Assembly: GCF_963662255.1 (NCBI RefSeq)
Contig: NW_026912163.1
Location: forward strand, 186,001 to 250,000
Source: Cinclus cinclus
Lineage: Eukaryota; Chordata; Aves; Passeriformes; Cinclidae
Length of the DNA: 64,000 bases
Direction: 5' to 3'
Part shown: one piece after another, positions 19,497 through 60,880 of the stretch
Position numbering within the stretch: the first letter of the stretch is position 1
How the letters are laid out: each line of letters starts with the position of its first letter
The notes under the pieces: model-generated
Told to the model about the DNA's origin: nothing
Database searches by the model: none
What the model saw: only the letters and a program-made list of their open reading frames with translations
Position numbers and translations under genes: made by a program

Positions 19497-20269
19497 TTTT
19501 GGGGGAAAAGAAGGGTTGAGCGCGTTGGGTTTATGTTCCTGCGGGCCAAGTTCAGCTGGACAAGCCAGTGCCCCTTTCAGCCTCAGAGAGCCTGGGGCTG
19601 CTTATCACCAACCTCCCACACCCCTCCAGGCTGCCGGGGGTCCCCCGGCTCCGGGATCGCCCCTCTGCGCTCTCCCCGCTCCGGGGTTCCCGTATTCCCC
19701 CACGGCTCTCCCGGATATCCCCAGAACCGATCTCGCCCCCTCTCCGCCAGAACGAGCGATAGCAATGTGGGACCCGCCAAGATCCCTCCCGGGGCATTTC
19801 CGGCTGAGCTTCGGGGTCCTGCAAGATCCAAACATCTCCTGCCCCACAAAGAAACCTCCAGGAGACCTCCCCACGATGGATTTGGGGCGAGCTCCCCCTC
19901 CCAGCTCACCTGCGGCTTCCGGGGGGAGGGGTGATGCCGGGGAAGTCGGGGAAGCTGCGGCCTAGAGCGGGCGAGCGAGTGAGCCGCTCGGTTCTGCTGC
20001 TGCTCTTCCTTCCACTACTCTTCTTCCTTCCGCTCCTCCTCCCCCAGCCCGGCCCGGCCCGGTGCCGACGCGCAAAAGCAGCCGCGCTCCGCCCTGGGGG
20101 ATTGCAAAGCGGTTGCGCCCCGCGCGGCACTGGGAAGTGATACTGGGAGCACTGGTAACGATCCTGACAGCACCTAGAAGCAACTGGGAGCGCTCTCCCT
20201 GCCAGTACCGCTCTTACTGGGAGCACTGGGAGGGAACTGGGAGCAAACTGCGCCTAGACCCGGCTACAG

Positions 20270-32372: not shown

Positions 32373-32915
32373 TGTTAGCATATACATATACATTTAATAG
32401 TTAGTGGTAGTAATGCTAAGGCTGCAGTTTGTAGCTAGTGCAAGGTAGGCCCTGGGAACTAAGCCAGGGAATGTGCTGAGCTACAGAATAATGAGTTAAG
32501 GGCCAGTGGGGCGAAGAAGGACCAACTGGTTATTTATAGGAACAGTAGGGAATTTACTGATGAAGTACAATAAACAGGTGTGGGATTAATCTATAGTTCT
32601 AGTTTAGACAAGCATGTAGGATTTATAACCGTTAGAAAGGTATCTTATTGTCTTAACTTAGGCAGGCGTGCAAGAGTTATAACCTTTAGAAATATTATCT
32701 CGAAAATGACTGCTGCCTTTGATGTGAAGTATGTGGACCATAGCATGTAGCCATGGTGAAGCAAGATTTGTAAAAGGGTATAAAACTGTGTAAGATTCAC
32801 TAAGGGGTTGGGACTTTGACTTTGGACGCTAGTCCTCAGGTCCCCGGGCCCTGAATAAAGCACCGCACAAAACAACTTTGTTGATTTGTGTTTTACTCTT
32901 TGGGATCGGGCAGCG
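32373..32915 (+). repeat. 5' LTR of provirus 2
   Basis: Starts TGTTAGCATATAC. TATAAAA lies at 32,779-32,785 and AATAAA at 32,854-32,859, giving a short R of roughly 50-80 bp. The last base is G (GGCAGCG) where the 3' LTR has A (GGCAGCA), so this copy has lost its terminal CA. Confidence 0.92.
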
Positions 32916-32920
32916 GTTTT

Positions 32921-32938
32921 TGGCGACCGCGGCAGGAC
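32921..32938 (+). other. Primer-binding site, probably arginine tRNA
   Basis: TGGCGACCGCGGCAGGAC lies 5 bases after the LTR. Its complement ends in GGTCGCCA, an acceptor end typical of some tRNA-Arg species. The assignment is from memory of acceptor sequences and is tentative. Confidence 0.5.
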
Positions 32939-33235
32939 TCCGGAGGTGGCTGGGGCGGTTCGCGAGCTGATCCACTCCACGCCGGCACCAGGTGATTCCT
33001 GGGGAGTCATCGACCGGCGCCCGACCCCGCGCCTGACGGACAACTGTAACAGGTAAGCCCGAAGGTGCTTTATTATTTGGTTTAGGTGCCTGCCTGATAA
33101 GTCGAGGCGGCGATCCTCGCAGGGTTGGGCAGAAGACGTCTCTGGTTGGTAAAGCCTAGGCGCCGACCGTTAGACGCGGCGAAAGCTGCGCAGGATCGGC
33201 ACTTGCCCCTCGCGGCGTCGAGAAGTGGCAAGTTT

Positions 33236-33585
33236 GGTTGGTTATTGGTTTATTGGTTAATAATTTGATAATCACTGTCTGTTGGTTTGTTGGTTAAATA
33301 ATTTGATAATTAGTGTCTGTTGGTTTATTGGTTAATAATTTGATAATCACTGTCTGTTGGTTTGTTGGTTAAATAATTTGATAATTAGTGTCTGTTGGTT
33401 TATTGGTTAGTAATTTGATAATCACTGTCTGTTGGTTTGTTGGTTGATAATTTGATAATCAGTGTCTGTTAGTTTGTTGGTTGATGATTCGATGATCAGT
33501 GTCTGTTGGTTTGTTGGTTAATAATTCGATAATCAGTATCCGTTGGTTTATTGGTTAATAATTTGATAATCAATATCTGTTGTAG
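33236..33585 (+). repeat. Tandem repeat in the gag leader of provirus 2
   Basis: About seven units of roughly 46-48 bp, of the form TTGGTTNATTGGTTAATAATTTGATAATCANTGTCTG. They sit between the primer site and gag, where packaging and dimer signals normally lie. The last unit runs into the start of the long gag frame. Confidence 0.85.
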
Positions 33586-33637
33586 CCGTGACTGTTGGAA
33601 GTGTGTTTGTGAGATAGTATTGTGTGATTGTGTTATT

Positions 33638-35335
33638 ATGATGCCATTTAAAACGTTTAAAGCTTTGGTTCAATCTAATGAAAAGGTTCCGGAAAATACT
33701 CCGTTAGGATGTTTGTTGGGGCGTTGGAAAAGAGAAGGGTTCCATCAAGAGTTAAAAAGGGAAAGGATGATTGATTATTGTAATCATTTGTGGCCACAAT
33801 ATGAAACTGGAAGTTCGGGGTGGCCCCTTAATGGGTCTATTGACCCTGGTGTGATATCCCCGTTAATGCAGTTTTTACGGGAAAATGAAAAATGGGATGA
33901 GATTCCTTATTTGGATTTGTTTTATACCCTAAAAGGCAAACCCGAATGGCAGAAAGAATGTGGTATTATGGTATTACAGGTAGAGGAAAAAAATTGTCAA
34001 GGTTGTAGGCAAAGGAATAGGTGTAATGGTTGTTTGACAAAGCTGACAAGCCAGGAAGAGGACCTATCTTTGCTTGTAGCTCCTAGTGCCCCTCCTGCAG
34101 AATTAGCTTCGGAAGAGGAAGATAGTGATAAAGAAGAAAGAGAAATAATACAAACCCCAGAAATGGGGAAGGGCTCCCCGGAATCGATAATACCTTGTCC
34201 TGGGGAGCCATCTCCCGGTCATACCCGTAATATACCGAGAACCCCTATTGCAGAAAGAACTAGACAAGGGAGGAAAAATAGGGAAAAACCCCAACTGATA
34301 GCCCCTTTAAGGGAAGCTATGGGACCTCAGGGTGAGAAGGTGTTTATTAAAGTCCCGTTCTCACCTGGGGATCTGATAATTTGGAAACAAGCAGCAGGGT
34401 CATACCGGGAGGATCCGGACAAGGTTGCTCGAGTGGTAAAAATGATAATAAAAACACAAAATCCTGATTGGAATGATTTACAGGTGTTACTAGATACCTT
34501 GATGGATTCAACCGAGAAAGAGATGGTGTTACGGGCAATGACAGAACGAGCCAGGGAAATGTTGAGGGTACAAATGATGGATGGAACTCTAAATGACTTG
34601 GTCCCGAGAGAGGACCCCGGGTGGGATCCTAACACCAGTCGGGGTTGGAAAAGACTTCAAGTTTATCAAGAATTAATAATAGAAGGGATTAGAACGGGGA
34701 TGCCAAAAACAATGAATTGGTCAAAACTGTATTCCATAAGACAGGATAAAAGTGAGTCCCCGTCAGCATTCCTGGAGCGGCTGAAGGAAACTGCACGCAG
34801 ATTTACTAATTTAGAGGTTGATGGGGAGGCAGGGAAATTACAGTTGGCTTTGATTTTTATGGGGCAATCTCAGGATGATATTAGGAAAAAGCTGCAAAAG
34901 TTAGAAGGGGAGGACACTCGGAACCTAGAGAAAATGCTAGAAGTGGCATGGAAGGTATATAATAATAGAGAAAAAGAGACAGCAAAGAGACATCAGGCAA
35001 ATATTTTAGCAGTATTGCAACACGCTACGGGAGGAAGCCCAAGAGGACGAGGACGGGGCCGGGGTGGTATGGGTCGAGGAAGGGGCATAATTCAGCAGAA
35101 TTTGGGAAGGGGAGCAATGGGAGGATTGGGAAATCCCTTCGGGGGGCAAGGAAAATTGGGTCCTAATCAATGCGCCTTTTGCAGACAGTTAGGTCACTGG
35201 AAAAATGAATGTCCAGTCAAATGGGGAGTGGGTAATGTGGGGAATGTAAATCCTATGGGAAACGCAGGAGCTACCACGGGGCCGGTAGATGTCGCTCAAG
35301 CATTTGTGTTAGGCAACTATCAAAATCAGAGCTGA
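33638..35335 (+). CDS. gag: Gag polyprotein of provirus 2
   Basis: The frame is open from 33,551 (594 codons), but the first 29 codons lie in the leader repeat and are Cys-rich, so I start at the ATG pair at 33,638/33,641 (MMPFKTFKAL). There is no MG myristoylation start. With residues counted from 33,551: a matrix-like region to about 170, late-domain motif PSAP at 178-181, an acidic linker, a capsid from about 266 (VPFSPGDLIIW, gammaretroviral style), a major-homology-like block SPSAFLERLKETARRF at 403-418, an Arg/Gly-rich stretch 497-512, and one zinc knuckle (C541, C544, H549, C554). It ends at UGA followed by CUAG, a strong readthrough context. It appears intact. Confidence 0.92.
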   Translation: MMPFKTFKALVQSNEKVPENTPLGCLLGRWKREGFHQELKRERMIDYCNHLWPQYETGSSGWPLNGSIDPGVISPLMQFLRENEKWDEIPYLDLFYTLKGKPEWQKECGIMVLQVEEKNCQGCRQRNRCNGCLTKLTSQEEDLSLLVAPSAPPAELASEEEDSDKEEREIIQTPEMGKGSPESIIPCPGEPSPGHTRNIPRTPIAERTRQGRKNREKPQLIAPLREAMGPQGEKVFIKVPFSPGDLIIWKQAAGSYREDPDKVARVVKMIIKTQNPDWNDLQVLLDTLMDSTEKEMVLRAMTERAREMLRVQMMDGTLNDLVPREDPGWDPNTSRGWKRLQVYQELIIEGIRTGMPKTMNWSKLYSIRQDKSESPSAFLERLKETARRFTNLEVDGEAGKLQLALIFMGQSQDDIRKKLQKLEGEDTRNLEKMLEVAWKVYNNREKETAKRHQANILAVLQHATGGSPRGRGRGRGGMGRGRGIIQQNLGRGAMGGLGNPFGGQGKLGPNQCAFCRQLGHWKNECPVKWGVGNVGNVNPMGNAGATTGPVDVAQAFVLGNYQNQS

Positions 35336-35339
35336 CTAG
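35333..35339 (+). promoter_or_regulatory. Gag/pol readthrough stop, UGA-CUAG
   Basis: Gag ends TGA and pol continues in the same frame. The stop is followed by CTAG, the known high-readthrough context (UGA CUA G) of some viral and animal mRNAs. Murine-leukaemia-type viruses use UAG with a downstream pseudoknot; no structure was tested here. Confidence 0.75.
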
Positions 35340-35359
35340 ATCAGGATCTGAAGGTAGTA

Positions 35360-37612
35360 TTGGAGGTAGGGGGACAAGAACGAGAATTTAGAGTTGATAC
35401 GGGAGCAACACATTCGGTTTTGAATACAAAATTAGGGTTATTAAGTGATGCAAAAATTCAAGTAATAGGGGCAACTGGGCAAGTAGAAGAGAGGACATTT
35501 TTGCAGCCGTTAGACATAAAATTCGGAGGAAAAGAATTTGATCATCAATTCCTGTATATGCCTAATTGCCCAGAGTCACTGTTTGGAAGAGATCTGTTAT
35601 CTCTTCTAAATATGAGAATATTATTTGAAGGAGGACGAGTGAAATTAGAAATTCCTGATAAAGAAATATCTAGACTATTTGTGATTAAGGAGGTAGAGCC
35701 CACCCCAATTCCTGAAGAGGTTGAACAGGCAGTGGTACCTTGGGTTTGGGAAACCGGCACTCCAGGTAAGTCTAAGGCAGCTCAACCAGTAGTGGTTGAG
35801 CTAAAGGAGGGAGTCCAACCGGTAAGGATTAGACAATATCCGATTAAGTTAGAAGCTAGGAAAGGAGTAGCCCCCATGATTGCTCAATTCTTAATCCAAG
35901 GTATTTTGCAAGAATGTGAGTCAGAATTTAATACCCCAATTTTTCCAGTACGAAAACCCAATGGTAAATATAGGTTAGTTCAGGATCTGAGAGCTATAAA
36001 TAATATAACCAAGGATATCCACCCAGTGGTGGCAAACCCCTATACTTTGTTAACATCTGTGTCTGAAAGATTTCAATGGTTTACAGTAATTGATTTAAAA
36101 GACGCTTTCTTCTGCATCCCTCTGGCATTTGAAAGTAGGAAATATTTTGCATTCGAGTGGGAAGACCCTGACTCTGGCCGGAAGAAACAGCTTACTTGGA
36201 CACGACTTCCGCAAGGATTCAAGAATTCCCCCACAATATTTGGGAACCAGTTAGCCAAGGAATTGGAGGAATGGAAAACAACACAGGTAAAAGAATCTCC
36301 CTTTTCTCATGTAATACTTCAATATGTAGATGACATTTTCCTGGCCACAGAAGAAAGGGACATTTGCCTAAATTTAACTATAAGCTTATTGAACATGCTA
36401 GGCCAGGCTGGATATCGGGTCTCGAAAGAAAAGGCCCAGCTCATCCGGACAAGTGTGTTATATTTGGGCTGTGAAATAACACAAGGAGTAAGGCGATTAG
36501 GAGCAAATAGAATTGAAGCCATCTGCACCATACCTATTCCCCGAAATCATCAGGAACTAAGATCCTTTCTAGGAATGGTAGGATGGTGCCGGCTGTGGAT
36601 ACCGAATTTCGGACTCCTGGCCAAACCCTTATATGAGGCACTAAAAGAGACACAGTTACGGTGGGACAAGCCACAGCAGAATGCGTTCCAAGGGCTAAAG
36701 CAAGCACTAAAAGAAGCCCCGGCATTGGGACTACCCGATTTAACTAAGGACTTTCAATTATATGTAAATGAGAGACAGAGACTGGCTTTAGGAGTACTCA
36801 CGCAAAAGTTGGGATCATGGAAGCGTCCGGTCGGCTATTTTTCGAAACAACTAGATGCAGTCAGCTCTGGATGGCCATCCTGTTTGCGAGCCGTGGCAGC
36901 TACTGTACTATTGATTCAGGAATCAAGAAAATTGACTTTGGGTAAGAAAATAGAAGTGTTTGTGCCTCACATGATGATAACAGTTCTGGAACAAAAAGGG
37001 GGGCATTGGTTGTCCTCCAGCAGAATGTTGCAATATCAAGCAATATTAAGGGAACAAGATGATGTTGAGCTAAAAGTAACTAACCATATCAATCCAGCAG
37101 AATTTCTCCGCAGTGAGCAAGAAGAAGGCGAATTGACCCACGACTGTGTGGAAGTCATTGAACAAGTCTTCGCTAGCCGCACTGACCTGAAAGACGTGCC
37201 ATTGGAGTCTCCGGACTGGGAACTGTTTACAGATGGATCCAGTTTCGTCGAGAATGGGACCAGGTATGCGGGTTATGCGGTGGTAACGCTCCTCCAGGTC
37301 GTGGAAGCTAAAGCCCTCACCCCGGGAACATCAGCGCAGAAAGCAGAGATTGTGGCTTTGATTCGCGCCTTGGTTTTGAGTCAAGGAAAGAAGGTAAATA
37401 TATGGACTGACTCTAAATATGCATTTGGAGTTCTGCATGTCCATGGAGCATTATGGAAAGAAAGAGGACTGTTAAGTTCCCAAGGGACATCTATAAAACA
37501 TCGAAACGAAATCCTATCTCTTTTGGATGCTGTGCATAAACCAGCTGCAGTAGCAGTAATGCATGTGAGAGGACATCAGAAGGAAGAAGGAAAAAATCTA
37601 CCAAGGAAATAA
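35360..37612 (+). CDS. pol: Pol of provirus 2: protease, RT, RNase H
   Basis: 750 codons from the first ATG after the readthrough stop; the true product would start inside gag-pol. Residues from 35,360: protease active site DTGA 13-16 (flap region not examined), RT with LPQG 283-286 and catalytic YVDD 322-325, a connection domain, and RNase H with Asp625 (FTDGS), Glu663 and Asp684 (WTDSK). The frame shifts at the A6 run 37,591-37,596, just before the RNase H/integrase linker, and ends at TAA 37,610-37,612. All enzyme motifs upstream are intact. The A-run break could be a one-base slippage mutation or a consensus error. Confidence 0.92.
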   Translation: MEVGGQEREFRVDTGATHSVLNTKLGLLSDAKIQVIGATGQVEERTFLQPLDIKFGGKEFDHQFLYMPNCPESLFGRDLLSLLNMRILFEGGRVKLEIPDKEISRLFVIKEVEPTPIPEEVEQAVVPWVWETGTPGKSKAAQPVVVELKEGVQPVRIRQYPIKLEARKGVAPMIAQFLIQGILQECESEFNTPIFPVRKPNGKYRLVQDLRAINNITKDIHPVVANPYTLLTSVSERFQWFTVIDLKDAFFCIPLAFESRKYFAFEWEDPDSGRKKQLTWTRLPQGFKNSPTIFGNQLAKELEEWKTTQVKESPFSHVILQYVDDIFLATEERDICLNLTISLLNMLGQAGYRVSKEKAQLIRTSVLYLGCEITQGVRRLGANRIEAICTIPIPRNHQELRSFLGMVGWCRLWIPNFGLLAKPLYEALKETQLRWDKPQQNAFQGLKQALKEAPALGLPDLTKDFQLYVNERQRLALGVLTQKLGSWKRPVGYFSKQLDAVSSGWPSCLRAVAATVLLIQESRKLTLGKKIEVFVPHMMITVLEQKGGHWLSSSRMLQYQAILREQDDVELKVTNHINPAEFLRSEQEEGELTHDCVEVIEQVFASRTDLKDVPLESPDWELFTDGSSFVENGTRYAGYAVVTLLQVVEAKALTPGTSAQKAEIVALIRALVLSQGKKVNIWTDSKYAFGVLHVHGALWKERGLLSSQGTSIKHRNEILSLLDAVHKPAAVAVMHVRGHQKEEGKNLPRK

Positions 37613-37637
37613 TCTAGCAGATGCTACTGCTCGGAAA

Positions 37638-38879
37638 GTGGCACGTGAGGTTTGGACACAATTGGCATTGATTCCGACAAAGGTAAGCCCAGTCACTCCT
37701 CACCTAGAGCAGAAGCCAAATTACTCCTTAGAAGATGAAAGACTGGCCAGACTTGTGAATGCCCAGAAGAACGCGTTAGGGTGGTATGTGACCGACATAG
37801 GGCAAGTATTAGTACCTGTCAAGATCATGAAAATAATTTTAGAAGCAGAACACAACAAATGCCACTGGGTGGCAGAGGTATTGGTTAAATTTTTAAAGAA
37901 AGAAATCATTTCTAACCAGATGTTGACTTTAGCTAAACGAGTTAATGCAATGTGCCCAGTCTGTATAAAGAACAATCCTGTAGTGAGGAAGCAGATTCAA
38001 TTAGGAAAATTACAGGTAGGACCAGAGCCAGGTGATTATTGGCAAGTTGACTTTTCAGAGTTGCCCAGGGCTCAAGGTTACAGATACCTTCTGGTATATG
38101 TATGTACTTTTTCGGGATGGCCCGAGGCTTTTCCGTGCAGAACTAACCAGGCTAAGGAGGTGGTCAAAACCTTATTAAGGGAAATTATTCCTAGGTTTGG
38201 AGTACCCCTGGGAATTTCATCAGATAGGGGACCACATTTTGTGGCCGGAATAGTACAAAACATAGCACGAGTGCTCGATGTTAAATGGAATTTACATACC
38301 CCATGGAGACCTCAATCAAGTGGGCAGGTAGAAAGAATGAATCAGACATTGAAAGGTCAGATCAAGAAAATCTGTCAAGAAGCTAAGATTCAATGGCCGC
38401 AAGCATTACCATTGGCTTTGTTAAGAATCAGGATTAAACCCAGGGAAAAGGTAGGAGTAAGTCCATATGAAATACTATATGGCAGACCATATCATGCAAC
38501 AACATTAAAAGGTGATCCTCACGTGGTTGGGGACCAAATGCTCTTTAACTATGTTCTATCTCTTAACAAGACTCTTACAGCTTTGAGAGGTGCTTTGCAG
38601 TGGAACCGCCCTCTGCCGCTGGAAAATCCAGTCCATGATATCCAACCAGGAGACCGGGTGTATGTAAAGAACTGGAGCACGGACCCCTTGAAGGAATCAT
38701 GGGAGGGTCCACGTCAGGTGATTATGACAACCTTCACGGCGGCAAAAGTCGAGGGCATCAACAACTGGATCCACTACACCCGGATCAAGAAAGTCCCTAC
38801 TCATTGGGAAGTGCAGCCACGGTCTTCCACCAAGATGGTTATTCGAGCCAAACCCACCGACCCAAGGCCTACATCTTAA
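37638..38879 (+). CDS. Integrase of provirus 2
   Basis: 413 codons in the frame one base on from pol. Zinc-binding HHCC: H72, H76, C106, C109. Catalytic D,D-35-E: D138 (QVDFSEL), D196 (SSDRGPH) and E232 (GQVERMN). A C-terminal basic domain follows. It overlaps env by 181 nt, a layout shared with gammaretroviruses. The ATG used is internal to pol; the product is normally cut from gag-pol, so the frame break at 37,591 would prevent it in this copy. Confidence 0.92.
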   Translation: MAREVWTQLALIPTKVSPVTPHLEQKPNYSLEDERLARLVNAQKNALGWYVTDIGQVLVPVKIMKIILEAEHNKCHWVAEVLVKFLKKEIISNQMLTLAKRVNAMCPVCIKNNPVVRKQIQLGKLQVGPEPGDYWQVDFSELPRAQGYRYLLVYVCTFSGWPEAFPCRTNQAKEVVKTLLREIIPRFGVPLGISSDRGPHFVAGIVQNIARVLDVKWNLHTPWRPQSSGQVERMNQTLKGQIKKICQEAKIQWPQALPLALLRIRIKPREKVGVSPYEILYGRPYHATTLKGDPHVVGDQMLFNYVLSLNKTLTALRGALQWNRPLPLENPVHDIQPGDRVYVKNWSTDPLKESWEGPRQVIMTTFTAAKVEGINNWIHYTRIKKVPTHWEVQPRSSTKMVIRAKPTDPRPTS

Positions 38880-41164
38880 TCATTGGACTGATCATGTCAT
38901 GTCAAGTAACTTTAACTCATGAATCTGTTGTGATTACTGTTCTAGAGCCGGTGACTATGGCGGTTGAAGGAATGAATGTAAATCTGACTTGTTCATTCAC
39001 CAATGACCAGGGAGCTGGATCCGAAGAAGTCAATGTAAGATGGAAAAAGGATATGGATTGGGTAGACACAGGTATTGTCACAACTTGGGATATGAAAACA
39101 CAAATGGGAAACACTACCCTACAATTGATAAATGTAACTTCGGGATCTGAAGACAAGTATTTATGTGGAGTCTGGATCAGAGATAGTTTCGACTACGGTA
39201 ACTTGAAATTACGGGTAATGTCATTATTAGGGGATGGTACCAAGAAGGGGGATGTTGAGGTCATTCCAGCCTCAACCTATGTAGACATGTGGGACAGTCC
39301 TCCTTTGCGAATGAATTGTACTTTCCGATTGAAAAACGAGTGTGAATATGGGATACAAGTTAAGTGGTGGAGGGAAAATTCTCAGGGAATGTGGAATCAA
39401 ATCAGCGAAGGAGTTAGCTGGTGGTCCGAAGGAACCGTGGGAGGAGGATGGTTAAATATTACTGATCTGAAGATTGGGAAATTCGGAAGTAGATACTTGT
39501 GTATAGTCTCATGTGGAGAAATGGGTGACTTTGGAATACGAAACGTCAGGGCTTGGTCGCATTTGAGAGGTGGAATCACTGGCCAACGTGGGGTCTATAG
39601 TGGGCGGGGACATGCAATAACTGCAGTTTATCTTAATAGCATCAGAGGAACTCACAGAAGAACTCGAGCCATAGATGTAACATTTCCCCGCAGTCAGGAA
39701 CAGGAAAATTTGATAGTAGGATTAATTCGGGACTTTGGTAAAGTGCAGAATGTTTCCTCGATTACAGCCTGTTTACCTTTACCACAGGCAGCCGGGGAGC
39801 TGATACCGTGGGGAATCATCCCAGTAAAAACTTTACCCAGGGCATTCGTGGATTTTACTTGGAGTTGTAAATTGATACCAAAGGAGTATGTAGAAAAGAA
39901 GGAAGGATGCCAATTAATTAGGAATATGTTGGAAAAAGATTGCCAGCAAATGCCAGGCTACTATGCGTGGGTTAGTAAAATGAACAAATGCATTGTGGAA
40001 GGACCAATAAGGGAACCCTGTAATAAGGTTTGGATGCAGGTAAAACGCACAAGAAATGAAGAAGTATGTCAAAACATTACGCAATCACAGTCTTTAGAAG
40101 ACGATTGGGGAGCAATTTGGGGACCAAGTTTATTAGAGACATATAGTTACCTAGGAACTGTGAATTGGTGCATTCAATGGACAGGAAATAAGAACCAGAC
40201 TTATACTAGAGTATTAACAACAGAGACAGCTCAGAGGACATCAACTGGGACAACAGAGACATGGAATTGTTCACGAGTTATTACTTGTGATACTCCAGAA
40301 GCAGAAATAGGTTTGGTACCAGTAAGAGTGTTACTCAAGTGGGGATGTGAATGTAGAGGGTACAATCATACAATTAGGGGAGAGATGGCCGGTAACAAAC
40401 AAGTAGATTGCAAAACTACCACTATCAGAAGCCCTGGTAACTTGGTCTGGGTAATGGGACATGGGAAATGGACCACTCATATACCGATCGATGGGATGGT
40501 AACTCAAATAATTTTAGGAGTTCCTACCTTATGTCCATTCTGGAAACAATCTAAACTTAATAAACAAGAAATACAGGCCAGGCAAAGGAGAGACATAGGA
40601 GATGAAATTATTGAAGAAAATGAGTGGCATGAACCGTCAGGGGGAGTAAAATTCGGATGGGCACTAGAATCTTTATTTGCACCTATCTCCACATATCGAA
40701 ATAGGGAAATGTTGTATAGACTCCTGGGACAGACCGAAAGATTAGCAGCAGCCACCAAGAAGGGATTTAAAGATTTAAATTCACAATTACAGGCAACCAC
40801 TCGGATGACATTGCAAAACCGGATGGCATTAGATATGCTGTTACTAAGAGAGCATGGAGTTTGTGGATATCTGCATGGGAAGACAGATCATTGCTGTATT
40901 CATATCCCAAATGTGACAAAGGAAGTAGAAAAAGATAGAGATCAATTGGAGAATATTGAATCTAAAACTAGGGAAATAGCAAAAGATGCGGAATATAACT
41001 GGATTGGAGCAATATTCAGCTCTCTAGGGATCCAGGTCTCTGGTTGGATATCCTCAATTGTTCAATATGCAATAATATTGTTGATATTAATTGGAGTTGT
41101 GTATGGAGTTTACAGATGTCTTCTAGGAGTAATCACCAGAGAAGGAATTCATACCGGAGAATAA
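38699..41164 (+). CDS. env: Env of provirus 2 with two Ig-like domains
   Basis: 821 codons, intact. A short hydrophobic stretch at 58-66 (YILIIGLIM) fits a signal peptide after a 56-residue leader read over integrase. Ig-like domain 1: Cys98, Trp115, and D152-x-Y154-x-C156, the canonical F-strand signature; it resembles pIgR/CD300-type V domains (YLCGVW). Ig-like domain 2: Cys207, Trp223/224, Y266-x-C268, plus extra Cys215 and Cys272. The rest of the surface subunit is Cys-rich, with about 10 N-glycosylation sequons; no CXXC isomerase motif is seen, only CEC. Furin site RQRR 628-631. TM subunit: heptad region, ISU-like LQNRMALDMLLLREHG 705-720, then C722-X9-C732C733 (gamma-type is CX6CC), membrane span about 787-806, short tail. 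It would bind a cell receptor and fuse membranes; receptor unknown. The Ig-domain call is from sequence signatures only. Confidence 0.88.
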   Translation: MGGSTSGDYDNLHGGKSRGHQQLDPLHPDQESPYSLGSAATVFHQDGYSSQTHRPKAYILIIGLIMSCQVTLTHESVVITVLEPVTMAVEGMNVNLTCSFTNDQGAGSEEVNVRWKKDMDWVDTGIVTTWDMKTQMGNTTLQLINVTSGSEDKYLCGVWIRDSFDYGNLKLRVMSLLGDGTKKGDVEVIPASTYVDMWDSPPLRMNCTFRLKNECEYGIQVKWWRENSQGMWNQISEGVSWWSEGTVGGGWLNITDLKIGKFGSRYLCIVSCGEMGDFGIRNVRAWSHLRGGITGQRGVYSGRGHAITAVYLNSIRGTHRRTRAIDVTFPRSQEQENLIVGLIRDFGKVQNVSSITACLPLPQAAGELIPWGIIPVKTLPRAFVDFTWSCKLIPKEYVEKKEGCQLIRNMLEKDCQQMPGYYAWVSKMNKCIVEGPIREPCNKVWMQVKRTRNEEVCQNITQSQSLEDDWGAIWGPSLLETYSYLGTVNWCIQWTGNKNQTYTRVLTTETAQRTSTGTTETWNCSRVITCDTPEAEIGLVPVRVLLKWGCECRGYNHTIRGEMAGNKQVDCKTTTIRSPGNLVWVMGHGKWTTHIPIDGMVTQIILGVPTLCPFWKQSKLNKQEIQARQRRDIGDEIIEENEWHEPSGGVKFGWALESLFAPISTYRNREMLYRLLGQTERLAAATKKGFKDLNSQLQATTRMTLQNRMALDMLLLREHGVCGYLHGKTDHCCIHIPNVTKEVEKDRDQLENIESKTREIAKDAEYNWIGAIFSSLGIQVSGWISSIVQYAIILLILIGVVYGVYRCLLGVITREGIHTGE

Positions 41165-41288
41165 TGAAGGCTATGACCAGGAACGGACAACCGGCTGGGA
41201 ACACACCGCCTCCTTCGTGCTTAGAGACGGTTACATGAAGAATGGAGGGAAGAAGTTGAGCATCCTTGCAGAAGATTGAAGGATGCTC

Positions 41289-41301
41289 AAAAGGGGGGAG
41301 T
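41289..41301 (+). other. Polypurine tract of provirus 2
   Basis: AAAAGGGGGGAGT directly precedes the 3' LTR start, the expected plus-strand primer. Confidence 0.85.
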
Positions 41302-41847
41302 TGTTAGCATATACATATACATTTAATAGTTAGTGGTAGTAATGCTAAGGCTGCAGTTTGTAGCTAGTGCAAGGTAGGCCCGGGGAACTAAGCCAGGGAA
41401 TGTGCTGAGCTACAGAATAATGAGTTAAGGGCCAGTGGGGCGAAGAAGGACCAACTGGTTATTTATAGGAACAGTAGGGAATTTACTGATGAAGTACAAT
41501 AAACAGGTGTGGGATTAATCTATAGTTCTAGTTTAGACAAGCATGTAGGATTTATAACCGTTAGAAAGGTATCTTCTTATTGTCTTAACTTAGGCAGGCG
41601 TGCAAGAGTTATAACCTTTAGAAATGTTATCTCGAAAATGACTGCTGCCTTTGATGTGAAGTATGTGGACCATAGCATGCAGCCATGGTGAAGCAAGATT
41701 TGTAAAAGGGTATAAAACTGTGTAAGATTCACTAAGGGGTTGGGACTTTGACTTTGGACGCTAGTCCGCAGGTCCCCGGGCCCTGAATAAAGCACCGCAC
41801 AAAACAACTTTGTTGATTTGTGTTTTACTCTTTGGGATCGGGCAGCA
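41302..41847 (+). repeat. 3' LTR of provirus 2
   Basis: 546 bp, TGTTAGC...GGCAGCA, longer than the 5' LTR by a CTT-type triplet near 41,573. Followed by GGTC. Confidence 0.93.
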
Positions 41848-49555: not shown

Positions 49556-49905
49556 CAGGTTAAGTTTAGGTTAATGTTATTATTAAGCTTAGGCTTAGCG
49601 TTAGAGTTAGGGTGCGGGGTTAGGTTTAGGGATGAGGTTTAGGGTCAGGGTTAGGATTAGTGTTAATATTACTCTTAGGGTTAGTGTTGGGTTTAGTGTT
49701 AGGGTTAGCGTTGGTGTTGGGGTTAGTGTTCGGGTACAGGTATGGGTTAGGTTTAGTTTAGGGAGAGGGATAGGGATAGGGATAGGGATAGGGATAGGGA
49801 TAGGGATAGGGATAGGGATAGGGATAGGGATAGGGATAGGGATAGGGATAGAGTTGGGGTTATGGTTAGGGTTAGGGTTCGGGTACGGGTTAGGGTGACG
49901 GTTAT
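49556..49905 (+). repeat. Degenerate telomere-like block with (GGGATA)n core
   Basis: Scattered TTAGGG, TTAGGTT and GTTAGGGTTCGGG units on the same strand as the terminal telomere enclose about 14 tandem GGGATA hexamers (49,767-49,852). This is an interstitial telomeric sequence. It marks the border between the unique region and the subtelomeric arrays. Confidence 0.85.
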
Positions 49906-50815: not shown

Positions 50816-53800
50816 ACTCTGGCAGCCTAGTTGCCAGCTTTCGGCAGCTGCTGTCCTAGCAAGGAAGCTCAGGGAGTCAAAGCCAGTGCCGGGCGGCACC
50901 TTTCTGCTTTGCCCGCCTAAGCGGCGTCACGCTCCCTCGGATACTGTGTCCTTTCCCTCTGCACTGCGTCTGGCGAGGTGCTCTCTGTCTCTCGGAGCAT
51001 AAGGGCATAGGACAATGTTATCCACAGCAGGGTAGAAATGGCATTGCTAGCAGGAAAGCTAGATGCCTTGGAACTGTCCCCTTAGCCCTTGCCACTCACT
51101 TCAGGCTCGTACGCTGAGCAGAACAGCCTGCTGTTCTGAAGCTTCGCTGGCTGCCGTTCGTGCCCAGACGCGATTTCCTTCCCAAGGAGGCGAAGCGCCG
51201 TCTACTGCTCGCAGCGAGCACGCTGCTCCTGGCTTTCGCTTCTGCCGCAACCATTGCGTTCTGCTTTTCTTGTCTCGTGAATGGAGATGGAAAGCTTCTC
51301 GGCTTCAATCTCGCCTAGAACAACTGCGGCTACACATTATGCTCGCCCGGAACGCCCTGCTGAAACTTGCCTTCTGGCACCACATTCGCGGGGCAGCCGT
51401 CTTTCTTCGGCCACCTGCCAAGTGGCCCCATATCGCCGCGCTCGTTGCACTCCGCTTGTCAGATTGGCTTCCCGTGGCGCTGATTTCAGCCTGGCCAAAT
51501 ACTAGCGCTGCGGAGAGCTGTCTCGCAGACAATCCTGTTCCAGCATAGAAATTTGTCCTGCAATGTTCCCCCCTCTTTTCCCCCATGGTGTTGCTCTGAT
51601 GAATGCCTTGAGCATGGAACGACTTAAGCCAGCAAGTATTCCTCGCCGGCCACCTCTCGCTGTGCAAGAGGTATGCCGTGGACCCTTGGAACGCTGCCAA
51701 GCAAAAAGCAGAGCAGTGACCATAAAAGCGAGGAGAGAGCATGCATGAAGCACACTAGTTCTGTCTAGTGCTTTCCGTGCAGAGAGGCGGCAAAGCTGAA
51801 TGCCGTGCCAGAGCTTCACTTCTCGCTGGAGCACAGGAAGGCAAGAATGAAGAGGCAGAACACAGCCTTGGTTTCAGCAGCCTCCGGGACTGCAAAAGTT
51901 CAGCAATAGCTCTGTCAAAGCAGAACTCGGCTGAGAATGCTCTCGCAGCTTGGGAAAGTTAGGCGCAGCTGTTGACCAGCTCTGCCCGTGGCCACAGGCT
52001 GCTTCTTCCACCTTCACTGTGGCAGAGCTTTTGCGGAACAGAGACGGCATTCTTCAAGGGCGTGTTCTCCAAGGTGCTGTGAAACAGAGCCTAGCACGCT
52101 GTCTCGCTGATCCTGGCTTTCGGCAAGCAGGCGAGCCAGACCGCTGACATTCTGCACTCTGGCAGCCTAGTTGCCAGCTTTCGGCAGCTGCTGTCCTAGC
52201 AAGGAAGCTCAGGGAGTCAAAGCCAGTGCCGGGCGGCACCTTTCTGCTTTGCCCGCCTAAGCGGCGCCACGCTCCCTCGGATACTGTGTCCTTTCCCTCT
52301 GCACTGCGTCTGCCGAGGTGCTCTGTGCCTCTCGGAGCAGAAGGGCAAAGGACAATGTTTTCCACAGCAGGGTAGAAATGGCATTGCTAGCAGGAAAGCT
52401 AGATGCCTTGGAACTGTCCCCTTAGCCCTTGCCACTCACTTCAGGCTCGTACGCTGAGCAGAACAGCCTGCTGTTCTGAAGCTTCGCTGGCTGCCGTTCG
52501 TGCCCAGACGCCATTTCCTTCCCAAGGAGGCGAAGCGCCGTCTACTTCTGGCAGCGAGCACGCTGCTCCTGGCTTTCGCTTCTGCCGCAACGAGCTCGCT
52601 ACGAGCACTTTTCTTCTCAACCCTCTAGACCATTGCGTTCTGCTTTTCTTGTCTCGTGAATGGAGACGGAAAGCTTCTCGGCTACAATCTCGCCTAGAAC
52701 AACTGCGGCTACACATTAAGCTCGCCCGGAACGCCCTGCTGAAACTTGCCTTCTGGCACCCCATTCGCGGGGCAGCCGTCTTTCTTTGGCCACCTGCCAT
52801 GTGGCCCCATATCGCCGCGCTCGTTGCACTCCGCTTGTCAGATTGGCTTCCCGTGGCGCTGATTTCAGCCTGGCCAAATACTAGCGCTGCGGAGAGCTGT
52901 CTCGCAGACAATCATGTTCCAGCATAGAAATTTGTCCTGCAATGTTCCCCCCTCTTTTCCCGCATTGTGTTGCTCTGATGAATGCCTTGAGCATGGAACG
53001 ACTTAAGCCAGCAAGTATTCCTCGCCGGCCACCTCTCGCTGTGCAAGAGGTATGCCGTGGACCCTTGGAACGCTGCCAAGCAAAAAGCAGAGCAGTGACC
53101 ATAAAAGCGAGGAGAGAGCATGCACGAAGCACACTAGTTCTGTCTAGTGCTTTCCGTGCAGAGAGGCGGCAAAGCTGAATGCCGTGCCAGAGCTTCACTT
53201 CTCGCTGGAGCACAGGAAGGCAAGAATGAAGAGGCAGAACACAGCCTTGGTTTCAGCAGCCTCCGGGACTGCAAAAGTTCAGCAATAGCTCTGTCAAAGC
53301 AGAACTCGGCTGAGAATGCTCTCGCAGCTTGGGAAAGTTAGGCGCAGCTGTTGACCAGCTCTGCCCGTGGCCACAGGCTGCTTCTTCCACCTTCACTGTG
53401 GCAGAGCTTTTGCGGAGCAGAGACGGCATTCTTCAAGGGCGTGTTCTCCAAGGTGCTGTGAAACAGAGCCTAGCACGCTGTCTCGCTGATCCTGGCTTTC
53501 GGCAAGCAGGCGTGCCAGACCGCTGACATTCTGCACTCTGGCAGCCTAGTTGCCAGCTTTCGGCAGCTGCTGTCCTAGCAAGGAAGCTCAGGGAGTCAAA
53601 GCCAGTGCCGGGCGGCACCTTTCTGCTTTGCCCGCCTAAGCGGCGCCACGCTCCCTCGGATACTGTGTCCTTTCCCTCTGCACTGCGTCTGCCGAGGTGC
53701 TCTGTGCCTCTCGGAGCAGAAGGGCAAAGGACAATGTTTTCCACAGCAGGGTAGAAATGGCATTGCTAGCAGGAAAGCTAGATGCCTTGGAACTGTCCCC

Positions 53801-56800
53801 TTAGCCCTTGCCACTCACTTCAGGCTCGTACGCTGAGCAGAACAGCCTGCTGTTCTGAAGCTTCGCTGGCTGCCGTTCGTGCCCAGACGCCATTTCCTTC
53901 CCAAGGAGGCGAAGCGCCGTCTACTTCTGGCAGCGAGCACGCTGCTCCTGGCTTTCGCTTCTGCCGCAACGAGCTCGCTACGAGCACTTTTCTTCTCAAC
54001 CCTCTAGACCATTGCGTTCTGCTTTTCTTGTCTCGTGAATGGAGACGGAAAGCTTCTCGGCTACAATCTCGCCTAGAACAACTGCGGCTACACATTAAGC
54101 TCGCCCGGAACGCCCTGCTGAAACTTGCCTTCTGGCACCACATTCGCGGGGCAGCCGTCTTTCTTTGGCCACCTGCCATGTGGCCCCATATCGCCGCGCT
54201 CGTTGCACTCCGCTTGTCAGATTGGCTTCCCGTGGCGCTGATTTCAGCCTGGCCAAATACTAGCGCTGCGGAGAGCTGTCTCGCAGACAATCATGTTCCA
54301 GCATAGAAATTTGTCCTGCAATGTTCCCCCCTCTTTTCCCGCATTGTGTTGCTCTGATGAATGCCTTGAGCATGGAACGACTTAAGCCAGCAAGTATTCC
54401 TCGCCGGCCACCTCTCGCTGTGCAAGAGGTATGCCGTGGACCCTTGGAACGCTGCCAAGCAAAAAGCAGAGCAGTGACCATAAAAGCGAGGAGAGAGCAT
54501 GCACGAAGCACACTAGTTCTGTCTAGTGCTTTCCGTGCAGAGAGGCGGCAAAGCTGAATGCCGTGCCAGAGCTTCACTTCTCGCTGGAGCACAGGAAGGC
54601 AAGAATGAAGAGGCAGAACACAGCCTTGGTTTCAGCAGCCTCCGGGACTGCAAAAGTTCAGCAATAGCTCTGTCAAAGCAGAACTCGGCTGAGAATGCTC
54701 TCGCAGCTTGGGAAAGTTAGGCGCAGCTGTTGACCAGCTCTGCCCGTGGCCACAGGCTGCTTCTTCCACCTTCACTGTGGCAGAGCTTTTGCGGAGCAGA
54801 GACGGCATTCTTCAAGGGCGTGTTCTCCAAGGTGCTGTGAAACAGAGCCTAGCACGCTGTCTCGCTGATCCTGGCTTTCGGCAAGCAGGCGTGCCAGACC
54901 GCTGACATTCTGCACTCTGGCAGCCTAGTTGCCAGCTTTCGGCAGCTGCTGTCCTAGCAAGGAAGCTCAGGGAGTCAAAGCCAGTGCCGGGCGGCACCTT
55001 TCTGCTTTGCCCGCCTAAGCGGCGCCACGCTCCCTCGGATACTGTGTCCTTTCCCTCTGCACTGCGTCTGCCGAGGTGCTCTGTGCCTCTCGGAGCAGAA
55101 GGGCAAAGGACAATGTTTTCCACAGCAGGGTAGAAATGGCATTGCTAGCAGGAAAGCTAGATGCCTTGGAACTGTCCCCTTAGCCCTTGCCACTCACTTC
55201 AGGCTCGTACGCTGAGCAGAACAGCCTGCTGTTCTGAAGCTTCGCTGGCTGCCGTTCGTGCCCAGACGCCATTTCCTTCCCAAGGAGGCGAAGCGCCGTC
55301 TACTTCTGGCAGCGAGCACGCTGCTCCTGGCTTTCGCTTCTGCCGCAACCATTGCGTTCTGCTTTTCTTGTCTCGTGAATGGAGACGGAAAGCTTCTCGG
55401 CTACAATCTCGCCTAGAACAACTGCGGCTACACATTATGCTCGCCCGGAACGCCCTGCTGAAACTTGCCTTCTGGCACCACATTCGCGGGGCAGCCGTCT
55501 TTCTTTGGCCACCTGCCATGTGGCCCCATATCGCCGCGCTCGTTGCACTCCGCTTGTCAGATTGGCTTCCCGTGGCGCTGATTTCAGCCTGGCCAAATAC
55601 TAGCGCTGCGGAGAGCTGTCTCGCAGACAATCATGTTCCAGCATAGAAATTTGTCCTGCAATGTTCCCCCCTCTTTTCCCCCATGGTGTTGCTCTGATGA
55701 ATGCCTTGAGCATGGAACGACTTAAGCCAGCAAGTATTCCTCGCCGGCCACCTCTCGCTGTGCAAGAGGTATGCCGTGGACCCTTGGAACGCTGCCAAGC
55801 AAAAAGCAGAGCAGTGACCATAAAAGCGAGGAGAGAGCATGCATGAAGCACACTAGTTCTGTCTAGTGCTTTCCGTGCAGAGAGGCGGCAAAGCTGAATG
55901 CCGTGCCAGAGCTTCACTTCTCGCTGGAGCACAGGAAGGCAAGAATGAAGAGGCAGAACACAGCCTTGGTTTCAGCAGCCTCCGGGACTGCAAAAGTTCA
56001 GCAATAGCTCTGTCAAAGCAGAACTCGGCTGAGAATGCTCTCGCAGCTTGGGAAAGTTAGGCGCAGCTGTTGACCAGCTCTGCCCGTGGCCACAGGCTGC
56101 TTCTTCCACCTTCACTGTGGCAGAGCTTTTGCGGAGCAGAGACGGCATTCTTCAAGGGCGTGTTCTCCAAGGTGCTGTGAAACAGAGCCTAGCACGCTGT
56201 CTCGCTGATCCTGGCTTTCGGCAAGCAGGCGAGCCAGACCGCTGACATTCTGCACTCTGGCAGCCTAGTTGCCAGCTTTCGGCAGCTGCTGTCCTAGCAA
56301 GGAAGCTCAGGGAGTCAAAGCCAGTGCCGGGCGGCACCTTTCTGCTTTGCCCGCCTAAGCGGCGCCACGCTCCCTCGGATACTGTGTCCTTTCCCTCTGC
56401 ACTGCGTCTGGCGAGGTGCTCTCTGTCTCTCGGAGCATAAGGGCATAGGACAATGTTATCCACAGCAGGGTAGAAATGGCATTGCTAGCAGGAAAGCTAG
56501 ATGCCTTGGAACTGTCCCCTTAGCCCTTGCCACTCACTTCAGGCTCGTACGCTGAGCAGAACAGCCTGCTGTTCTGAAGCTTCGCTGGCTGCCGTTCGTG
56601 CCCAGACGCCATTTCCTTCCCAAGGAGGCGAAGCGCCGTCTACTTCTGGCAGCGAGCACGCTGCTCCTGGCTTTCGCTTCTGCCGCAACGAGCTCGCTAC
56701 GAGCACTTTTCTTCTCAACCCTCTAGACCATTGCGTTCTGCTTTTCTTGTCTCGTGAATGGAGACGGAAAGCTTCTCGGCTACAATCTCGCCTAGAACAA

Positions 56801-58238
56801 CTGCGGCTACACATTAAGCTCGCCCGGAACGCCCTGCTGAAACTTGCCTTCTGGCACCACATTCGCGGGGCAGCCGTCTTTCTTTGGCCACCTGCCATGT
56901 GGCCCCATATCGCCGCGCTCGTTGCACTCCGCTTGTCAGATTGGCTTCCCGTGGCGCTGATTTCAGCCTGGCCAAATACTAGCGCTGCGGAGAGCTGTCT
57001 CGCAGACAATCATGTTCCAGCATAGAAATTTGTCCTGCAATGTTCCCCCCTCTTTTCCCGCATTGTGTTGCTCTGATGAATGCCTTGAGCATGGAACGAC
57101 TTAAGCCAGCAAGTATTCCTCGCCGGCCACCTCTCGCTGTGCAAGAGGTATGCCGTGGACCCTTGGAACGCTGCCAAGCAAAAAGCAGAGCAGTGACCAT
57201 AAAAGCGAGGAGAGAGCATGCACGAAGCACACTAGTTCTGTCTAGTGCTTTCCGTGCAGAGAGGCGGCAAAGCTGAATGCCGTGCCAGAGCTTCACTTCT
57301 CGCTGGAGCACAGGAAGGCAAGAATGAAGAGGCAGAACACAGCCTTGGTTTCAGCAGCCTCCGGGACTGCAAAAGTTCAGCAATAGCTCTGTCAAAGCAG
57401 AACTCGGCTGAGAATGCTCTCGCAGCTTGGGAAAGTTAGGCGCAGCTGTTGACCAGCTCTGCCCGTGGCCACAGGCTGCTTCTTCCACCTTCACTGTGGC
57501 AGAGCTTTTGCGGAGCAGAGACGGCATTCTTCAAGGGCGTGTTCTCCAAGGTGCTGTGAAACAGAGCCTAGCACGCTGTCTTGCTGATACTGGCTTTCGG
57601 CAAGCAGGCGTGCCAGACCGCTGACATTCTGCACTCTGGCAGCCTAGTTGCCAGCTTTCGGCAGCTGCTGTCCTAGCAAGGAAGCTCAGGGAGTCAAAGC
57701 CAGTGCCGGGCGGCATCTTTCTGCTTTGCCCGCCTAAGCGGCGTCACGCTCCCTCGGATACTGTGTCCTTTCCCTCTGCACTGCGTCTGCCGAGGTGCTC
57801 TCTGTCTCTCGGAGCATAAGGGCATAGGACAATGTTATCCACAGCAGGGTAGAAATGGCATTGCTAGCAGGAAAGCTAGATGCCTTGGAACTGTCCCCTT
57901 AGCCCTTGCCACTCACTTCAGGCTCGTACGCTGAGCAGAACAGCCTGCTGTTCTGAAGCTTCGCTGGCTGCCGTTCGTGCCCAGACGCCATTTCCTTCCC
58001 AAGGAGGCGAAGCGCCGTCTACTTCTGGCAGCGAGCACGCTGCTCCTGGCTTTCGCTTCTGCCGCAACGAGCTCGCTACGAGCACTTTTCTTCTCAACCC
58101 TCTAGACCATTGCGTTCTGCTTTTCTTGTCTCGTGAATGGAGACGGAAAGCTTCTCGGCTACAATCTCGCCTAGAACAACTGCGGCTACACATTAAGCTC
58201 GCCCGGAACGCCCTGCTGAAACTTGCCTTCTGGCACCA
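50816..58238. repeat. 1.34/1.38-kb subtelomeric macrosatellite, trimeric higher order
   Basis: Nearly identical units whose equivalent points fall at 51,063, 52,403, 53,782, 55,161, 56,501 and 57,880, spacings 1340, 1379, 1379, 1340, 1379. The two lengths differ by a 39-bp block (GAGCTCGCTACGAGC...). Order by length is A-B-B-A-B-B, so every third unit is 4,098 bp apart. The last unit is truncated at 58,238, where the 44-bp array begins. CpG-rich. Overlapping open frames on both strands (up to 174 aa) recur because the DNA recurs; none has a recognisable domain. Confidence 0.93.
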
Positions 58239-60880
58239 ACTTGCCTCCATTGCGTCACAATGGTTCCTTTCTTCGCTTAACCCCTGTGGTGTCACAATGC
58301 ATCCCATGCCCTTATAGACCGCTTGATGTCACAATGTATCATTTGATTCTTGGCGTCTATGGTGTCATAATATTTCCATGTGTTTATTGGGAACCATGCT
58401 TTCACAATCCATCCCTGGCCCTTTTACTCCCCTTGGCGTCACAAAAGGATCAGTAGAATATTAGCCCCCACTGGGTCACAATGGTTCCTTGCTTCTCTTA
58501 ACCCCTGTGGTGTCACAATGCATCCCATGCCCTTTTAGACCACTTGGTGTCACAATGGAACATTTGATTCTTGGCCTCTATGGTGTCATAATATTTCCAT
58601 GTTTTTATTGGGAACCATGCTTTCACAATCCATTCCTGGCCCTTTCACATCCCCTTGTGAAAAGGGATCATTACATTGTTAGCCTCCATTGAGTCACAAT
58701 GGTTCCTAGCTTCGCTTAACGCCTGTGGTGCCACAATGCAACCCATACCCTTTTAGACAACTTGGTGTCACAATGAATCATTTGATTCTTGGCCTCCATC
58801 GTGTCATAATAGTTCCTTGCTGGTATTAGGCTCCATGCGGTCACAATTCATCCCTGGCCCTTTTAGGACCCCTGGTGTCACAAGGGATCAGTAGAATATT
58901 AGCCTCCCTTGCGTCACAATGGTTCCTTGCTTCTCTTAACCCCTGTGGTTTCACAATTCATCCCATGTCCTTTTAGGCCCATTGGTGTCACAAGGGATCA
59001 TTAGAATGTTATCTTCCATTGGCTCACAATGGTTCCTTGCTTCTCTTGACCCCTATGGTGTCACAATGCATCCCATGTCCTTTTAGGCCACGTGATGTAA
59101 CAATGAATAATTTGATTCTTGGCCTCCATGGTGTCATAATAGTTCCTAGGCTCTATTGGGCGCCATGCTGCCACAATTCATCCCTGGCCCTTTTAGGACC
59201 ATTGGTGTCACAATGGACCATTAGATTGTTAGCCTCCAATGTGTCACAATGGTTCCTTGCTTCTCTTAATCCCTGTGTTGTCACAATGCATCCCATGCCC
59301 CTTTAGGTGACTTCATGTCGCAATGAATCGTTTCATTCTTGGCCTCCAAGGTGTTATAATTGCTCCTACGTTCTATTGGGCCCCATGTTGTCACAATTCA
59401 GTCCATGCACTTTTAGGCCCATTGGTGTCAGAATGGACCATTAGATTGTTAGCCTCCACTGGGTCACAATGGTTCTTTTCTTCTCTTAACCCCTGTGGTG
59501 TCACAATGCATCCCATGCCCTTATAGACCGCTTGATGACAGAATGTACCATTTGATTCTTGGTGTCTATGGTGTCATAATATTTCCATGTGTTTATTGGG
59601 CACCATGCTTTCACAATTCATCCCTGGCCCTTTTAGGACCCCTGGAGTCACAAGGGATCAGTAGAATATTAGACTCCATTGGGTCACAATGGTTCCTTGC
59701 TTCTCTTTACCCCTGTGGTTTCACAATTCATCCCATGTCCTTTTAGGCTCATTGGTGTCACAAGGGATCATTAGAATGTTAGCCTCCAGTGGGTCACAAT
59801 GATTCCTTGCTTCTCCTAACCCCTATGGTGTGACAATGCATCCCATTCACTTTTAGGCCACTTCATGTCACAATGAATCATTTGATTCTTGGACTCCATG
59901 ATGTCATAATAGTTCCTTGCTTCTATTGGGCGCCATGCTGTCACAACTCATCCCTGGCCCTTTTAGGACCATTGGTGTCGCAATGGATCATTAGGTGGTT
60001 GGCCTCCACAGGGTCACAATGGTTCCTTGCTTCTCCTAACCTCTATGGTGTGGCAATGCATCCCATGCCCATTTAGGCCACTTGATGTCACAATGGAACA
60101 TTTGATTCTTGGCCTCTATGGTGTCATAATATTTCCATGTTTTTATTGGGAACCATGCTTTCACAATCCATCCCTGGCCCTTTTACATCCCCTGATGTCA
60201 AAAGGGATCATTAGATTGTTAGCCTCCATTGGGTCACAATGGTTCCTAGCTTCACTTAACCCCTGTGGTGCCACAATGCAACCCATGCCCTTTTAGACAA
60301 CTTGGTGTCACAATGAATCATTTGATTCTTGGCCTCCATGGTGTCATAATAGTTCCTAGGTTCTATTGGGCACCATGCTGTCACAATTCATCCCTGGCCC
60401 TTTTAGGACCATTGGTGTCACAATGGATCATTAGACTGTTAGCCTCCAATGGGTCACAATGGTTCCTTGCTTCTCTTAACCCCTGTGGTGTCACAATGCA
60501 TCCCATGCCCTTTTAGGTCACTTGATGTCGCAATGAATCGTTTCATTCTTGGCCTCCATGGTGTTATAATTGTTCCTAGGTTCTATTGGGCCCCATGTTG
60601 TCACAATTCATCCCATGCACTTTTAGGCCCATTGGTGTCAGAATGGACCATTAGATTGTTAACCTCCACTGGGTCACAATGGTTCTTTTCTTCTCTTGAC
60701 CCCTATGGTGTCACAAATGCATCCCATGCCATTTTAGGCCACTTCATGTCACAGTGAATCATTTGATTCTTGGCCTATATGGTGTCCTAATATTTCCTTG
60801 TGTTTATTGGGAACCATGCTTTCACAATTCATCCCTGGCCCTTTTACGCCCCGTGGCGTCACAAAGGATCAGTAGAATAT
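58239..60880. repeat. 44-bp minisatellite in about 220-bp higher-order units
   Basis: About 12 copies of a unit of 218-221 bp (the CTTAACCCCTGTGG landmark recurs at 58,276, 58,497, 58,715 and 58,935). Each unit is made of five diverged 44-bp monomers with a GTGTCACAATG core. It directly abuts the telomere. Confidence 0.9.

Follow-up and report, generated by a model that had tools for sequence, protein, structure and literature searches.

The endogenous retrovirus CrocERV31 carries at its env position a host-derived protein with three immunoglobulin (Ig)-like domains, nectin3, which replaces env (PMC4299795). In feline leukemia virus (FeLV), a viral protein that resembles T-cell receptor beta has two Ig domains; it is not described as belonging to an envelope glycoprotein (Env; PMC12474240). 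Avipoxviruses have stand-alone genes for Ig-like proteins, among them SWPV1-183, CNPV081, SWPV2-076 and ALPV-085 in the published tables (PMC5390406, PMC8151833). The locus described here is an open env gene of 821 codons in a gamma-like provirus of Cinclus cinclus; it lies in a stretch of 64,000 nt (assembly GCF_963662255.1, contig NW_026912163.1, positions 186,001 to 250,000, forward strand), which we call the window. Unlike CrocERV31, the bird lineage to which this gene belongs fuses Ig domains to a complete gamma-like Env, with a cleavage site between the two, and unlike the FeLV protein the module sits in many Envs. SWPV1-183 represents the same three-Ig module as a separate gene in a DNA virus, and the other avipoxvirus proteins are its tabulated relatives. 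As the preliminary description of this stretch had supposed, no retroviral Env with recognizable tandem Ig domains was found described in the open-access literature searched, which mostly leaves out subscription papers and preprints.

Comparison of the sequences establishes an Env anatomy in which one to three Ig domains stand between a predicted signal peptide and a furin-type site that appears to be ancestral. The window Env has two tandem Ig domains at its N-terminus (Ig1 and Ig2), as had been stated at the outset, and the remnant of a third (Ig3). All residues on which that first assignment was based are present: C98, W115, D152, Y154 and C156 in Ig1 (with C98, W115, Y154 and C156 as the canonical positions), and C207, W223 (also W224), Y266 and C268 in Ig2, which contains the further cysteines C215 and C272. 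The span originally given for the feature, 38940..39580, stops short of the Ig3 remnant and of the RRTR site (Table 1). Against the Pfam model ig (PF00047, cut-off 21.8), Ig1 scores 25.0 bits at E 2.4e-5 when the whole Env is scanned and 30.8 bits when scanned as a separate fragment, and the same model is matched at E ≤0.1 by all 14 Ig1 sequences scanned (13 Env, 1 poxvirus). A search of Ig-family hidden Markov models thus succeeds for Ig1 and falls short for Ig2, for which no Pfam Ig model is above cut-off in the window Env and none is matched by more than one of nine sequences. We consider Ig2 to be a second Ig domain on the basis of its family profile, which aligns with that of Ig1 (hhalign E 3.7e-6), and of an AlphaFold2 model. 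This model, of a kind that the preliminary description had proposed as a check, covers residues 68-325, was built with 18 sequences, and contains two strand-rich domains (mean predicted local distance difference test score (pLDDT) 80; predicted template modeling score 0.71). For ten-residue blocks 2-22, the pLDDT is 82-95 in 18 of 21 blocks and 69, 75 and 77 in the remaining three, and confidence is low from about Env residue 288 onward, which is the stretch of the Ig3 remnant. The preliminary description had also entertained convergent evolution, and convergence from scratch is unlikely because sequence profiles detect the Ig domains directly.

The cysteines of the module are almost uniformly kept among aligned sequences (Ig1, 20/21 and 22/22; Ig2, 14/14 at each of four positions; Ig3, 10/10 at both positions). 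In the window Env they are residues 98, 156, 207, 215, 268 and 272, while C68 falls in the signal-peptide stretch. Since the module cysteines are even in number and have conserved partners, nothing obvious would tether the module to the surface subunit (SU) after cleavage. Five N-glycosylation motifs lie upstream of the SU core. Comparisons between the domain profiles (hhalign E 2.4e-8 for Ig1-Ig3, 3.7e-6 for Ig1-Ig2 and 0.001 for Ig2-Ig3) fail to separate duplication from general Ig likeness, and we do not adopt the idea that one Ig was duplicated into three.

The second distinctive element is the furin-type site, defined here as R-x-x-R or K/R-x-K/R-R, between the module and the SU core. Such a site occurs 10-20 residues upstream of the core in 26 of 27 Envs (all except P0011), based on a 24-residue stretch that was picked after the alignment had been inspected; overlapping windows of the same size within the SU cores contain one in 58 of 798 cases. 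The 27 sequences were the window Env, P0001-P0019, P0024-P0027, P0032, P0035 and P0037, the others having no core start or not being close Envs. Envs with short or broken modules (P0006-P0010, P0037) retain the site, and it is also present, behind a short leader, in the Ig-less P0026, P0027 and P0032, so that it appears to be ancestral. The simplest reading of these alignments is that a cleaved leader was present ancestrally and that the Ig domains were inserted into it.

Downstream of this site the protein resembles gamma-type Env in having SU and a transmembrane subunit (TM) with a furin-type site, an LQNRMALD motif in TM, and a match to TLV_coat in relatives, being above the Pfam cut-off in P0024, P0025, P0026 and P0032. 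The preliminary description had called the rest of the protein ordinary gamma-type Env, which does not hold in several respects. Apart from the Ig module and the additional cleavage site (26/27), TM has CX9CC in place of CX6CC in 23 of the 24 sequences with a three-cysteine motif (the exception, with CX6CC, is the distant P0033; in P0004 the first cysteine of the motif is lost), and residues 336-632 of the window Env contain no CxxC (CWLC) motif. The stretch between residues 632 and 721 is likewise free of cysteines, and the cysteine-flanked fusion peptide of avian gamma-type (alpharetrovirus) Env is not present. A review describes CX6CC as a rigidly conserved motif of both the gamma and the avian gamma Env types. 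By its description, OVEX1 ORF3 is also larger than usual and also without CX6CC and CWLC (PMC2717909). Judged by its motifs, and independently of what the Ig domains do, the present lineage could merit an Env type of its own.

Searches of a large protein collection gave 20 matches for the whole window Env and 32 for the SU core, in overlapping sets. Their named sources, which we take to belong to the following bird groups, are mostly passerines, with one mousebird (Colius), one parrot (Strigops), one duck and one emu. Sister Envs with and without the module, which the preliminary description had hoped for, are both found: three-Ig, two-Ig, one-Ig and broken-Ig forms are represented, and the passerine P0026 and P0027 and the emu P0032 are Ig-less by eye, with a short leader. 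A Pfam scan of P0026 and P0032 returned TLV_coat only, plus weak GP41 in P0032. The third Ig domain is complete in P0001, P0002, P0003, P0005 and P0016-P0019. The parrot Env has one Ig, which aligns to Ig1 of the window with 37 bits (E 3e-6, a single comparison) and has Pfam Ig scores under cut-off. In a tree of the Env core (27 sequences, leaving out P0018-P0020, P0029-P0031 and P0033 onwards), the Ig-bearing passerine and mousebird Envs form a clade of 21 sequences with support 96/94, some of them short or Ig-broken. Within it the window Env pairs with the mousebird Env (97/89), whose third Ig is complete, so loss of the middle of Ig3 most likely took place in the window lineage. The Ig-carrying Env lineage consists of class I retroviruses and has so far been met only in birds. 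The gene model of the duck (Anas) sequence P0025 combines an Env of the family with an RVT_thumb-containing reverse transcriptase that looks class II-like by eye; either two retrovirus classes have exchanged env here, or the model itself is faulty.

With residues 1-291 of the window Env as query, at least 80 matches were obtained in the 1.17 billion bases of the host assembly (E ≤0.001), and among the matches listed at least 69 are full-length (1-290 or 1-291), of which at least 63 are stop-free. The stop-to-stop frame is 841 codons in the window and 866 codons in 57 of 80 genomic matches. Twenty further env copies, all chosen from matches with the 866-codon frame and no stop, were compared with the window copy, giving 20 distinct sequences among 21; their openness over 821 codons is no finding, as they were selected for it. 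All 21 share the Ig3 remnant and the six Ig cysteines, and their site upstream of the SU core reads RRTR or RRNR. Ratios of nonsynonymous to synonymous differences (pN/pS), summed over all pairs with a codon bootstrap (pairs share history), were 0.41 (0.14-1.31) for Ig1, 0.46 (0.18-1.90) for Ig2, 0.44 (95% interval 0.23-1.01) for Ig1 and Ig2 together, 0.22 (0.11-0.45) for the SU core and 0.38 (0.16-1.03) for TM. By these values the Ig domains are likely to be under constraint, resembling TM in this respect. For the Ig3 remnant and linker the ratio is 1.40 (0.42 to no upper bound), and no constraint is visible there, on few changes.

Among solved structures that span the Ig1 profile, the leading matches belong to the B7 family: CD276 (6e-20 when its domains are summed), PD-L2 (6.1e-9) and PD-L1 (1.4e-6), all at low identity to the viral domain. 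The likeness of domain 1 to pIgR/CD300 domains, suggested in the preliminary description, is not clearly borne out, and such an origin is not favored, as the pIgR match (1.1e-6) has a best stretch of just 33 positions while CD276 and PD-L2 span the profile. CEA, Dpr-interacting protein, DSCAM and CEACAM1 rank between the B7 matches (partial or summed), and JAM-A spans the profile at a lower rank. For Ig2 the top matches to Ig proteins are weak (PD-L2, E 0.15; BTLA, 0.36). The alignment of Ig2 with PD-L2 has in common an extra cysteine after the F-strand cysteine, followed by "DY", in a strand that touches PD-1 in PD-L1 and PD-L2; this similarity may serve as a lead. We know of no B7 protein with the three-Ig order of the viral module.

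No host exon resembling Ig1 or Ig2 was found in whole-genome searches with Env residues 1-291 (E ≤0.001) or with the poxvirus module (E ≤0.1), in both of which the best candidates only were scored. The three-Ig poxvirus query gave 85 matches in the host genome; 79 are Env sequences, none of which reaches Ig3, and the remaining six (E 0.04-0.1, Ig3 part only) were read by eye as titin-, obscurin- and VEGFR-like exons and rejected as donors. The module may have been captured from a host or from another virus.

The module profile finds SWPV1-183 of shearwaterpox virus (332 aa) with E 1e-109 and 45% identity at 99% coverage. This protein has a signal-peptide-like start and three Ig domains, with no Env core or fusion machinery, and it ends at the last strand of Ig3, where the Envs begin their furin-type site. 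In a midpoint-rooted tree of the three-Ig module (12 of 25 sequences, ≥170 aa, P0019 left out), SWPV1-183 groups with the Env module of Pipra (96/93); with Strigops as outgroup, on a very long branch, it lies inside Env groups with support 93/91 and 83/87. From these trees we favor a transfer from Env to poxvirus, a direction that stays tentative because it depends on a single poxvirus sequence and a distant, long-branched outgroup. In the published tables, the best match of SWPV1-183 is CNPV081, an "Ig-like domain protein" (54%), SWPV2-076 is 97% identical to CNPV081 (PMC5390406), and ALPV-085 is 98.8% identical to SWPV2-076 (PMC8151833). The main text of PMC5390406 has no word starting with "retrovir". 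Scans of IMG/VR with the module profile and with P0034 gave no matches.

Table 1. Features of the provirus and its env gene (positions in the window).
Feature	Position	Strand	Remarks
Provirus, gamma-like	32373-41847	+	LTRs, gag, pol and env frames
5' LTR	32373..32914	+	GGTC directly upstream (4-bp target repeat)
Tandem repeat, 37-bp unit, ~9 copies	33245..33582	+	provirus leader, between 5' LTR and gag core
gag frame	33551..35335	+	Gag_p30; one zinc knuckle under cut-off
pro-pol frame: protease, reverse transcriptase, RNase H	35360..37612	+	
Integrase frame (rve, MLVIN_C)	37638..38879	+	frame differs from 35360-37612
env, 821 aa, open	38699..41164	+	
Signal-peptide-like hydrophobic stretch, residues 55-72	38861..38914	+	putative; hydropathy maximum at 59
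Ig domain 1, residues 75-178 (C98, C156)	38921..39232	+	Pfam, profiles, model
Ig domain 2, residues 184-290 (C207, C268; probable extra pair C215/C272)	39248..39568	+	profile, model
Third Ig remnant, first and last strands only	39569..39649	+	intact in relatives
Furin-type site RRTR, residues 320-323, separating the Ig module from the SU core	39656..39667	+	motif
SU core, residues 336-631	39704..40591	+	alignment
SU/TM cleavage site RQRR, residues 628-631	40580..40591	+	motif
TM subunit	40592..41161	+	TLV_coat 16.3 bits, under Pfam cut-off 22.5 in window copy
CX9CC motif, residues 722-733, replacing CX6CC	40862..40897	+	
3' LTR	41302..41847	+	GGTC directly downstream

The provirus that contains this env gene has the marks of a gammaretrovirus-like (class I) element, namely Gag_p30 (123.3 bits), an MLV-type integrase C-terminus (51.4 bits), and the 4-bp repeat GGTC at both flanks. 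It is young: across 545 aligned columns, its two long terminal repeats (LTRs) show 4 mismatches and a single gap. The integrase lies in a different frame from protease, reverse transcriptase and RNase H, so pol is interrupted in this copy. A TTAGGG telomere array of ~521 copies occupies 60880-64000, running to the end of the window, and an internal TTAGGG stretch of ~52 copies lies at 49589-49904; the provirus is therefore probably subtelomeric. Elsewhere in the window, a frame of 161-174 codons occurs at 51063-57022 in five near-identical copies ~1.3-1.4 kb apart (a tandem duplication), another retroelement, unlike the first, was read by eye at 11734-16669 from frames resembling protease and integrase, and sequence that by eye codes for zinc-finger-like repeats, in units of 84 bp and 252 bp, lies on the minus strand at 18315-19601.

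As to function, we lean slightly toward the module being an immune decoy that would be released by furin. Furin in the producing cell would cut the upstream site as well as the SU/TM site, yielding the Ig module, SU and TM. The module cysteines can pair internally, which would leave no disulfide link to SU, and the module would be shed or only loosely held. In its shed form it would serve as a secreted decoy or ligand directed at the host, perhaps by binding a B7-type immune receptor; this step is the weakest. The stand-alone avipoxvirus copy, having no fusion machinery, argues for a use of the module apart from cell entry, and suggests that different viruses share a module with possible effects on host immunity. 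Several observations weigh against this reading. Furin cutting, shedding and action on host immunity are steps that we infer from sequence. The B7 likeness of Ig1 comes from ranking distant Ig domains, among which members of other Ig families are interspersed, and titin and CEA lead the matches of the whole module, through Ig3. Half of Ig1 is lost in P0008 and P0010 and several Envs have a single Ig, so the module is dispensable, and P0011 is without the upstream site. The pN/pS interval for Ig1 and Ig2 extends to 1.01, and copies chosen for open frames may lean toward constrained ones. Finally, SWPV1-183 is the one poxvirus sequence compared, CNPV081, SWPV2-076 and ALPV-085 being table entries only. 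A bolder version strikes us as improbable: Env would be a polyprotein giving three products, the first of them a secreted B7/PD-L-like mimic of a checkpoint ligand, and the module would have passed between bird retroviruses and poxviruses as a ready-made immune modulator.

The receptor-binding domain of gamma-type Envs is N-terminal, and Ig domains often mediate cell-cell adhesion. The N-terminal Ig domains might accordingly be an attachment head that stays on the virion and chooses the cells bound, with the furin-type site priming the spike. Their faster divergence fits this idea (median pairwise identity 0.38, 0.44 and 0.42 for the three domains versus 0.52 for the SU core, from different pair sets). 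We nevertheless think it rather unlikely: a cleavage site separates the module from the core in 26 of 27 Envs, with no obvious unpaired cysteine to retain it, the module is absent or broken in the open-frame P0008, P0010, P0026 and P0027, and the poxvirus copy lacks an Env core. The module might instead be a removable, leader-like cap or a shield of glycans under which SU stays inactive in transport, its Ig nature being incidental. That the Ig-less sisters retain a short leader and the same site, so that a cleaved leader looks ancestral, would suit such a cap, as would the five N-glycosylation motifs before the core of the window Env; since both the stand-alone poxvirus copy and the near-complete conservation of the Ig cysteines would be left unexplained, we give it little credence. 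A different question is origin, where capture of an avipoxvirus immune decoy into env, perhaps via retrovirus integration into a poxvirus genome, is compatible with any of these functions. Avipoxviruses have several Ig-like genes, insertions of reticuloendotheliosis virus (REV) in fowlpox virus have been reported, and the searches described above found no close host exon for Ig1 or Ig2 among the best candidates scored. We regard this course of events as unlikely, however, in view of the nesting of SWPV1-183 among Env modules (with Pipra, 96/93, and at 93/91 and 83/87 with the long-branched Strigops outgroup) and of the parrot Env, which already has a matching Ig1 in the single comparison made.

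If furin frees the module, as the decoy reading would have it, a single retroviral gene would encode a fusion machine together with a soluble immune effector, an arrangement more familiar from large DNA viruses. The copy in the poxvirus bears independent witness to a stand-alone role, and it is evidence that a retrovirus lineage and a poxvirus have shared the module.
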